Of a stretch of 64,000 bases of DNA, positions 41,596 through 45,604 are shown piece after piece. The notes under the pieces are model-generated. The model ran no database searches, was not told the origin of the DNA, and worked only from the letters and a program-made list of their open reading frames with translations. The stretch is from contig NZ_RJJW01000008.1 of the NCBI RefSeq assembly GCF_003781945.1, positions 1-64,000 on the forward strand. Reading direction: 5' to 3'. Position 1 is the stretch's first letter. Every line of letters begins with the position of its first letter. This DNA is from Halorubrum sp. CSM-61 (GTDB lineage: Archaea > Halobacteriota > Halobacteria > Halobacteriales > Haloferacaceae). The position numbers and the translations under genes are program-made.

Positions 41596-42651
41596 TCAGA
41601 TCAGGCGCTCGGCGATCCGACCGGCGCCCTCCGCGGCGGCGGTCGCGGGGTCGTCGGGGGAGACGACCTCGACGTCGCGGTCGAGCTCGGCGGAGAGCCG
41701 CTTCTCGAACTCCTCGGTGAGGCCGGGGATGCAGGCCATGCCGCCGGTCGCCGCGACGGGGCGGCCCAAGGCGAGCTGGTACGGCTTCATGTGGTCGTTC
41801 GCGAGCTCCGGGAGGAACTCGTTGGCGACGACGTCGACCGCCTCGTCGATGTACCGGTCGACGGGCTCGCGCACGCCGCGGTCGACGGTGAACTCGTGGC
41901 TCCCGCCGCCGGGCTGTTGGATCACGTCCGTGAACGGCTCGAAGTCGTACACGTCGGCGTGTTCCTCCTTGTACTCCCGGGCGGTCGTCCGGTCGATGTG
42001 GACGCGACCCTGGCTCTCCTCCTCGACGGCGGCGACGATCCGGCGGTCGACCTCGTTGCCCGTCACCGAGCCGGTCGAGAACGGCGAGAGCTGCTCGCCG
42101 CGTCGGTAGGCGCACGCCTCCAGCGTCGTGGACCCCATGTTGACGGAGACGAACACCTCGTCGATGGCGGACAGGTCGTCGCCGTAGGCGGGGATCGCCC
42201 CGCACAGCGACTCGGGGTAGCTCCGCGTCTCGACCCCTCCGATCGAGGAGCCCTCGATCACCGACTTGAGGTTGTTCACGCCCGCCTCGTTGTCGATGGT
42301 GGGGACCGCGTAGACGACCGCGCTGTCCTCGGGCACGTCGTGGGCGTCCACGAGCGCCTCGAAGAAGCGCTCCGCGTCGGCGACGCTCTCGTCGTCCTCC
42401 GGGAGCCCCGAGCGGAGCATAAAGCGCACCGTGTCGGGGTACTCGATCGCGGCCTCGTGGCCGAACAGGACCTTCTCCTCGCCCGTGATGGCGTCCTCGT
42501 AGGTCGCCAGACACGTCAGCGTCGAGTGTCGCTCGCGACCGCCCCGCCCGTCGGGGAGGTCGAGCACCGTCCGGGTGCTGCCGAGTTTCACGCCGACCGC
42601 TTCCGGGCCGTCTGTACCGTTGATGTCCGTGGATTCGTCGTCGTCGCTCAT
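41596..42651 (-). CDS. Actin-superfamily protein, salactin-like
   Basis: A 351-residue actin/Hsp70-superfamily protein. Phosphate-1 loop: VGVKLGSTRTVLDLPDG (residues about 19-35). Phosphate-2 loop: VFVSVNMGSTTLEACAY. Adenosine motif: ATGGMACIPGLTEEFEKRL near residue 300. VYAVPTIDNEAGVNNLKSVI resembles the MreB/ParM group. It matches my recollection of haloarchaeal salactin, an actin homologue in Halobacterium that forms dynamic polar filaments; identity was not checked. ATG at 42651 overlaps the stop of the upstream FlaD/E-domain gene by four bases, so the two proteins are made together. Confidence 0.85.
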   Translation of the reverse strand: MSDDDESTDINGTDGPEAVGVKLGSTRTVLDLPDGRGGRERHSTLTCLATYEDAITGEEKVLFGHEAAIEYPDTVRFMLRSGLPEDDESVADAERFFEALVDAHDVPEDSAVVYAVPTIDNEAGVNNLKSVIEGSSIGGVETRSYPESLCGAIPAYGDDLSAIDEVFVSVNMGSTTLEACAYRRGEQLSPFSTGSVTGNEVDRRIVAAVEEESQGRVHIDRTTAREYKEEHADVYDFEPFTDVIQQPGGGSHEFTVDRGVREPVDRYIDEAVDVVANEFLPELANDHMKPYQLALGRPVAATGGMACIPGLTEEFEKRLSAELDRDVEVVSPDDPATAAAEGAGRIAERLI

Positions 42652-43145
42652 GATTCACTCGCACACGAAGCGATCCGGACGATGGAGACGAGGCTGATCC
42701 GGTGGTCGGCGGGGGTGAATGGCCGGTCGTACCGCGGGGCGTCGAACCCCTCCAACCGGCGCCGGAGGGCCGCGACCGCGTCGTCGTCGACCCAGCCGAG
42801 CTCGGCGTAGTACGCTAACGCGTCCCGGCTCCGCACGTGGCCGCCCACGTCGACGAGGTAGCCGAGCCACTCGCCGATCTCGTGTTCCGCCTCCGGGGAC
42901 GCCGGGATCGCCGTCAGGTACGGCCGATCGCCGGCGTCGGATCGGTCCCCGTCGCCGGAGAGCCGCAGCCCCCGCTGACGCTGGAGCAGCTCGGTGAACG
43001 CGGCCGAGCGGGCGGCCTGCTCCGCTCGGTTCCGGTTCGGCTGACGAAGCGACCGCTCCCGAGGCGCTCCGTCGGCGCCGTCCCGCGGTGCGTCCGCGAT
43101 CCGGCGCAGCTCCCGCACGTCGTATTGCCGTGGATTCAGACTCAT
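42648..43145 (-). CDS. FlaD/E-domain protein coupled to the actin-like gene
   Basis: A 165-residue protein. The C-terminal half, YLTAIPASPEAEHEIGEWLG followed by YLVDVGGHVRSRDALAYYAE and LGWVDDDAVAALRRRLEGF, follows the FlaD/FlaE domain of archaellum accessory proteins (YLt.lP.s..a......WL..L......AL.YY..igWi...v...L...L.g). The N-terminal 80 residues are charged and probably disordered. No archaellum genes lie nearby. Overlap with the actin-like gene (ATGA) suggests a joint role, perhaps polar anchoring; that is inference. Leftward TATA candidate: CATATAGCC near 43189-43197. Confidence 0.75.
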   Translation of the reverse strand: MSLNPRQYDVRELRRIADAPRDGADGAPRERSLRQPNRNRAEQAARSAAFTELLQRQRGLRLSGDGDRSDAGDRPYLTAIPASPEAEHEIGEWLGYLVDVGGHVRSRDALAYYAELGWVDDDAVAALRRRLEGFDAPRYDRPFTPADHRISLVSIVRIASCASES

Positions 43146-43276
43146 GTTCCGTCCGTCGTTCGCGTCCGTACCGGGACGCTCACGGGCCGGCTATATGATA
43201 GTTGCCACGCAGTTATCAGGTGTGAGAAACTACCGCGGCCGAACTCGCGGGCTGCGACGCGCTCGCCTCCTCGAAG

Positions 43277-44828: not shown

Positions 44829-45131
44829 ATGCCCCGAGTTACCACGAAGGGACAGGTCACCATCCCGAAAGAGATTCGGGATGCGCTCGGGATCGAACCC
44901 GGAGACGAAGTCGACTTCGAGCGGGTCGGTTCCGAGTATCGACTCCGGAAACGGGCCCCGACCACCGAAGACGGCGAAGACCCGTTCGAGAAGCACCGTG
45001 GCAGCGCAGACGGCGACGAGACGATGCCGGATCGGATGCGTCGGCTCCGCGGCGAGTATCCGCGCGAGACGAACGGATCGCTTCCGGTCGACGAGTCGTC
45101 CGACGACGAGCAGACGGGTGCCGACTCGTGA
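44829..45131 (+). CDS. AbrB/VapB-type antitoxin
   Basis: A 100-residue protein. The first 45 residues, MPRVTTKGQVTIPKEIRDAL then GIEPGDEVDFERVGSEYRLR, are an AbrB/SpoVT swapped-hairpin DNA-binding domain. The remaining acidic tail (MPDRMRRLRGEYPRETNG) is the part expected to wrap and inhibit the toxin. The stop overlaps the start of the PIN gene by four bases (GTGA), the usual antitoxin-first arrangement. It likely represses its own promoter. Confidence 0.9.
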   Translation: MPRVTTKGQVTIPKEIRDALGIEPGDEVDFERVGSEYRLRKRAPTTEDGEDPFEKHRGSADGDETMPDRMRRLRGEYPRETNGSLPVDESSDDEQTGADS

Positions 45132-45604
45132 CGACGGCCGTCGACACGAACGCGTTCCTCGCGCTGCTGTACGACGACGAGTACGCAGACGCTAGCGAAG
45201 CGGCCCTCAGGCACGCGTACCGAGAGGGAGCGGTGGTCGTCACGCCCGTCGTGTACGCCGAACTTTCGGCCGACGGCCACTTCGACTCGGCCGCCGACCT
45301 CGATCGATTCCTCGAGGATTTCAGCGTCCGAGTCGTGGAGCCCTCGCGTGAGGCGCGCTTCGAGGCGGGCGATCGGTTCCGAGAATACGCGGACTGCCGA
45401 TCGGACGGGATCCAGTGTCCAGCGTGTGGTGAGAAGCGATCCGTCGACTGCGAGGAGTGTGGCGAGGCGCTCTCGCCGCGGCAGCACATCGCCGCCGACT
45501 TTCTCATCGGTGCGCACGCCGCCATCGACTGCGACGGCTTGATCAGCTTCGATGAGGGGTTTTACTCGACGTACTTCCCGTCGCTTCCCGTGTTTCCGGA
45601 CTGA
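45128..45604 (+). CDS. PIN-domain toxin (VapC-like) with inserted zinc ribbon
   Basis: A 158-residue PIN nuclease. TTAVDTNAFLALLYDDEY supplies the first acidic residue, VTPVVYAELSAD the second, and HIAADFLIGAHAAIDCDGLI the third and fourth (D and the end-of-domain acidic region). Between residues 97 and 117 lies QCPACGEKRSVDCEECGEAL, a four-Cys zinc-ribbon insertion before the third acidic residue, giving a longer protein than the usual 120-135. VapC toxins cut tRNA or rRNA. GTG start at 45128, overlapping the antitoxin stop. Confidence 0.88.
   Translation: MTTAVDTNAFLALLYDDEYADASEAALRHAYREGAVVVTPVVYAELSADGHFDSAADLDRFLEDFSVRVVEPSREARFEAGDRFREYADCRSDGIQCPACGEKRSVDCEECGEALSPRQHIAADFLIGAHAAIDCDGLISFDEGFYSTYFPSLPVFPD

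Follow-up and report, generated by a model that had tools for sequence, protein, structure and literature searches.

An actin gene paired with the archaellum gene arlD: salactin probably serves the polar swimming apparatus of Halobacteria

A pair of overlapping genes in Halorubrum sp. CSM-61 raises the question of what an archaeal actin is doing beside a protein with an archaellum-type domain. The pair lies on the minus strand of a 64-kb window, the whole stretch of DNA analysed here (contig C20 of genome G000; position 1 is the first letter of the window). Its downstream gene (41596..42651, start ATG) encodes a 351-residue actin homologue that the earlier note had called salactin-like. The match to curated models is nearly full-length: in a profile search it scores 582.7 bits against PF25229 over residues 17-351 (cut-off 27.1, E=2.6e-175) and 567.9 bits against the NCBIfam salactin equivalog NF053533 (cut-off 400). 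By their salactins, the closest named genomes are Halorubrum, at 97-99% identity. Volactin was not found in this genome, so salactin is the only one there of the two described haloarchaeal actins.

The upstream gene (42648..43145, start ATG) encodes 165 residues and shares the four bases ATGA at 42648..42651 with salactin, a stop/start overlap that probably couples their translation. The 131-bp gap on its 5′ side (43146..43276, minus strand, from ORF boundaries) may hold a promoter of arlD's own; the A+T-rich CATATAG at 43191-43197 is, as a motif, not beyond chance, and a bacterial-type promoter scan was uninformative. Judging ORFs by eye, we noticed no other motility-like genes within several kb of the pair. 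Genes adjacent to each other at 44829-45604 on the plus strand resemble, also by eye, an AbrB-type antitoxin and a PIN-type toxin (MPRVTTKGQVTIPKEIRDALGI...).

The identity of the partner

The earlier note had read a FlaD/FlaE pattern in the C-terminal half of the upstream protein, and profile comparison upheld it: residues 73-159 (42669..42929, minus strand) match the Arch_fla_DE family PF04659 with 59.7 bits (cut-off 21, E=2.7e-16). The genome holds only one other PF04659 gene, a 619-residue arlCE that belongs to the archaellum cluster of contig C21. The pair is indeed far from the archaellum genes, as had been remarked, but the cluster is without an arlD of its own. It comprises archaellin, cheY, a cheC-like gene, cheD, arlCE, arlF, arlG, arlH, arlI and arlJ, labels that rest on synteny, protein recognition and similarity rather than on curated models; a separate arlD was not found in it.

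In a Halobacterium-like genome, arlD sits in the cluster directly 5′ of arlCE and its product begins MTLNPREYDPEELR. The window protein begins MSLNPRQYDVRELR, and the motif NPxxYDxxELR is common to both. This N-terminal stretch (MSLNPRQYDVRELRR, 43101..43145, minus strand) is kept in ArlD and missing from ArlCE: among the fetched loci, duplicates included, 111 of the 122 FlaD/E ORFs linked to salactin carry the motif, against 0 of 48 ArlCE proteins, and P5, Y8, D9 and R14 are invariant in the ArlD alignment. In a tree of 159 FlaD/E domains, the ArlCE domains group in a single clade (support 0.91) that leaves out nearly all ArlD genes, whether salactin-linked, orphan or from the Halobacterium cluster; the tree has moderate support and, because it is built on a domain of ~90 residues, its deeper branching is weak. 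Because of the N-terminal motif, the tree and the lack of an arlD in the genome's own cluster, we conclude from sequence that the most likely identity of the partner is arlD (flaD), the gene for an archaellum switch-complex protein, moved out of the archaellum cluster and divergent (37-38% identity to Halobacterium-type ArlD).

Two other identities were discarded, a new FlaD/E paralogue by the N-terminal motif together with the cluster lacking arlD, and an ArlCE derivative by the domain tree. The window gene lies outside an archaellum cluster and the salactin-linked arlD of Haloferax lies with one, but cluster position is no strict requirement of the ArlD family. In Haloferax volcanii, ArlD is part of the switch complex and is needed for archaella and swimming (PMC6509185). 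Sequence searches of the PDB gave no match for either window protein; the AlphaFold model of ArlD is confident in its C-terminal helical domain and poor in its middle, and a Foldseek search of the PDB with this model returned no meaningful relative. Four genomes (G108, G061, G066 and G098) have an archaellum arlCE and lack both a second FlaD/E gene, the arlD candidate, and salactin.

Linkage to arlD and co-occurrence with archaella

Of the 71 Halobacteria genomes that carry salactin, 56 have arlD immediately upstream of it in the same orientation (hand tally). The two are unlinked in 13, seven of these in the family that contains Halobacterium-like genomes, and in one (G110) the FlaD/E gene is a convergent neighbour of salactin. 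Most salactin-bearing Halobacteria genomes thus have the two genes linked, the opposite of what the earlier note had said would refute its reading. Among 80 named loci, a FlaD/E ORF stands upstream of salactin in all except L110, L112 and L140. Of 69 loci measured, 28 have the four-base overlap, every one of them Halorubrum or near-identical, and outside Halorubrum the gap ranges from 2 to 350 nt, mostly below 150. With one locus taken per genus, a FlaD/E gene is at position -1 in 17 of ~25 genera and no other family exceeds eight. arlD is the only widely conserved neighbour of salactin in Halobacteria, the other neighbours of the pair being reshuffled from genus to genus, and the two genes are a conserved haloarchaeal unit.

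In the paper that first described salactin, synteny was called poor "even within the Halobacterium genus" (PMC10746226). That genus, in which its discoverers worked, is one where the link to arlD is broken, so that no usable gene context was found. The open literature that we searched contains no mention of the linkage, of its tie to archaella or of the pair as a system, in agreement with the earlier note. The families are already known; the conserved unit and its archaellum tie appear undescribed in the open literature.

Scoring salactin against FlaD/E is in part a test of the partner, so we repeated the comparison with archaellin and took volactin, another haloarchaeal actin, as a negative control. 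With phylogeny corrected for only partly, salactin is present in 71 of 117 Halobacteria genomes with archaellins and in 0 of 28 without (p=4e-10, 145 genomes); by genus, in 24 of 49 archaellated and 0 of 9 non-archaellated (p=0.007). Volactin has no such bias (66/117 versus 20/28, p=0.2); following archaella is therefore not a general trait of actins. Second volactin copies in open frames of ~770-1340 residues, possibly large multidomain volactin proteins, occur in many genomes of family f4 (for example G118:C2:40973-41923 and G137:C1:710374-711321).

Losses run the same way. Among 170 genomes of the window's own family, all 20 without FlaD/E are also without salactin; nine of the 20 belong to otherwise salactin-bearing genera, a co-loss with a stratified exact p=1.6e-5 that is weakened by several FlaD/E-less assemblies being incomplete. 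G014 has lost salactin along with archaella and retained volactin, and in G419 salactin is a frameshifted remnant inside a decaying archaellum island. A strict rule that salactin occurs only with archaella is weakened by G434, which has salactin and no archaellin match, and by G439, which keeps salactin and arlD with archaellin only as a pseudogene. Forty-six of the 117 archaellated genomes lack salactin, among them every sampled member of family f4, and G457, G486 and G502 have kept arlD and archaella and lost it. Salactin is almost confined to archaellum-bearing species in Halobacteria. In G502 a 331-residue protein with no Pfam match takes salactin's place directly behind arlD in the archaellum island (L236:7464-8459).

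This distribution bears on the view that salactin works chiefly like ParM, as a filament that segregates chromosomes and is needed when ploidy is low, with arlD a mere neighbour or a second cargo adaptor. All 28 non-archaellated genomes have chromosomes to segregate and none has salactin. Its conserved neighbour is a motor protein, with no conserved DNA-binding neighbour seen. ParA-like genes do occur near the pair in some lineages, but there ParA is followed by a CheW-domain protein and not by ParB. Among the points for segregation, an H. salinarum strain without salactin swims normally but in low phosphate has uneven DNA content and loses viability, and the other known dynamically unstable filaments are DNA partitioners (PMC10746226). 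We consider segregation unlikely as the main function. A ParM-type system would have a DNA-binding adaptor and a centromere-like repeat site; in ArlD, the adaptor candidate here, the profile search found a FlaD/E domain only.

Motility and type IV filament neighbourhoods

In Haloferax the pair lies within an archaellum/chemotaxis island, in the order cheY, cheC, cheD, arlD, salactin, beside archaellins and arlCE to arlJ (L193, L196, L197). An H. volcanii RNA-seq study of 2026 lists a unit "ArlD/HVO_1202" that is up with other archaellum units in a csmR deletion, and leaves HVO_1202 nameless (PMC13286277); from Haloferax synteny we infer that HVO_1202 is the salactin gene. The locus tag HVO_1202 is mentioned in no other paper of the open literature searched. 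Haloferax also has a third, divergent FlaD/E-domain gene (L193:17010-17459, L197:16583-17038, L113:12943-13524, L110:9101-9583), which lies either ~3 kb past salactin or, in G076 contig C4 (L195), immediately after a second copy of salactin.

One of the 71 salactin genomes, G117, has two salactins inside a partly duplicated arl operon, which suggests a second motor or actin variant. Its order is arlCE-arlF-arlG-salactin-arlCE-arlH-salactin-arlCE-arlH-arlI-arlJ (L194:7574-12123).

At ~19 named loci of Haloarculaceae (Haloarcula, Halomicrobium, Halomicroarcula, Halorhabdus and others), a divergently oriented gene for a ParA ATPase (PF13614/PF01656) lies beside the pair, and the gene after it encodes a protein with a CheW domain (PF01584) at its C-terminus. 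The ParA-CheW pair is absent from the window, and it remains with arlD where salactin has moved away (L148, L153, L154, L198).

Such company might mark salactin as a general filament of the polar hub, acting with MinD/ParA proteins on archaellum motors, chemosensory arrays and DNA alike, so that arlD would mark only one of its cargoes. CheC, CheD, ParA-CheW and MinD neighbours besides arlD would fit, as would the fact that DNA and polar phenotypes are both known (PMC10746226). A general hub, however, would not predict the near-absence of salactin from non-archaellated Halobacteria, and arlD is far more conserved as a neighbour than all the others; we consider this reading improbable.

Outside Halobacteria, salactin can occur without a FlaD/E match, in genomes whose Archaeoglobi-like and Methanocella-like labels are our assignment, partly from the lineages listed in PMC10746226. 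Most Archaeoglobi-like genomes have three consecutive genes, for salactin, a coiled-coil protein and a MinD/ParA ATPase (L217-L232). Directly upstream of this triad, L222 carries T2SSE (a PilB3-like type IV secretion ATPase), T2SSF and a pilin-like gene, and T2SSF lies downstream of it in L218, L221, L224 and L230. In three of four Methanocella-like genomes, a type IV prepilin peptidase is directly 3′ of salactin. The Archaeoglobi-like coiled-coil protein was considered as FlaC_arch and discounted, its match (4.9e-5) being below cut-off and one among many coiled-coil matches.

These neighbourhoods also speak to whether the linkage is historical, arlD having landed 5′ of salactin once in an ancestor and been inherited there without functional meaning. 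Against such an accident stand the reshuffling of all other neighbours between genera, the different place of salactin in G117, within the arl operon, the recurrence of a link to other type IV filament genes in two more lineages, and the loss of salactin with archaella even where volactin stays (G014). Although most linked cases in Halobacteria could stem from one event and some arlD genes persist after salactin moved off or was lost, we regard a linkage of purely historical origin as very improbable.

A proposed role, and comparison with known systems

Because of the linkage to arlD and the near-confinement to archaellated species, we propose that salactin, a little-understood cytoskeletal element, probably works for the polar swimming apparatus. 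On balance we lean towards a role for salactin as the cytoskeletal partner, at the pole, of the archaellum machinery: it would place, hold or share out motors, with ArlD as its likely adaptor and arlD-salactin as a conserved unit. The earlier note had likewise suggested a tie between the actin and the polar archaellum through the FlaD/E protein. That much is favoured by what the genes are, by their conserved linkage, by co-occurrence and co-loss, and by the motility or type IV filament genes nearby in several lineages; the partner, for its part, is best read as the known ArlD and not as a new FlaD/E-like accessory. We infer a physical interaction between ArlD and salactin, a direction of action, and a role in positioning or inheritance.

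Published imaging offers the parts of a mechanism. ArlD-GFP forms polar foci, of which small ones are mobile and sometimes travel from pole to pole, and an arlD deletion is without archaella (PMC6509185); MinD2 and MinD4 of H. volcanii affect the polar placement of ArlD foci and archaella (PMC11588486); and salactin foci in H. salinarum are polar, with filaments that grow out of them and then collapse (PMC10746226). ArlD, as a cytosolic motor protein with mobile polar foci, could tie salactin filaments to motor complexes or nucleate them there, so that polar complexes containing ArlD would anchor or nucleate salactin. Filaments growing from the pole and collapsing might then place, hold or share out archaellum motors before division, and chemosensory arrays may perhaps be placed by salactin as well, together with ParA/MinD ATPases.

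The H. salinarum deletion, with its normal motility and its DNA-partition defect in low phosphate, counts against an archaellum role (PMC10746226). The absence of a motility defect favours placement or inheritance under some conditions over rotation, or redundancy with MinD, and the deletion leaves room for a general polar-hub role that includes DNA. Salactin might even be the first actin system dedicated to positioning type IV filament motors and distributing them. ArlD-bound archaellum complexes would then nucleate or ride its dynamically unstable filaments between the poles, and the same actin would serve pilus-like machines in Archaeoglobi-like and Methanocella-like archaea; this wider claim we put forward tentatively, as possible but doubtful.

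Dynamics have been observed for few archaeal actins, salactin among them. The conserved operon gives it a partner that already has a name, a tag and workable genetics, since ArlD-GFP and deletions of arlD exist in H. volcanii. The cargo of salactin and the placement and inheritance of polar archaella thereby come within reach of direct experiment, and the link also suggests that the DNA defect in low phosphate may reflect only one part of salactin function. The open literature that we found names no filament system for archaellum placement.

Among known systems, the bacterial ParC/ParP polar chemosensory-array system resembles the Haloarculaceae loci, which likewise pair a ParA-like ATPase with a C-terminal CheW-domain protein; the resemblance to ParP lies in the CheW domain, and ParC/ParP has no actin. 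The MamK filament positions an organelle, the magnetosome, and differs from the window pair in cargo, the pair having no magnetosome genes. By published phylogeny, MamK is the nearest actin relative of salactin (PMC10746226). MinD2 and MinD4 of Haloferax volcanii (PMC11588486) are ParA/MinD ATPases that act on polar placement, whereas salactin is a filament. The ArlD/FlaD of the ArlCDE switch complex (PMC6509185, PMC2666748) shares with the window protein a C-terminal FlaD/E domain, an NPxxYDxxELR N-terminus and, in most genomes, its occurrence as one such gene per genome besides arlCE; the window gene differs in lying outside the archaellum cluster, in being coupled to an actin gene and in its divergent sequence.

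The H. salinarum salactin (Zheng et al. 2023, PMC10746226) belongs by curated models to the same family as that of the window. Its polar, dynamically unstable filaments are known for that species only. There, salactin is unlinked to arlD, was reported to have poor synteny and was read as a DNA-segregation filament; in the window it stands in an operon with arlD, a linkage that is widespread outside Halobacterium.
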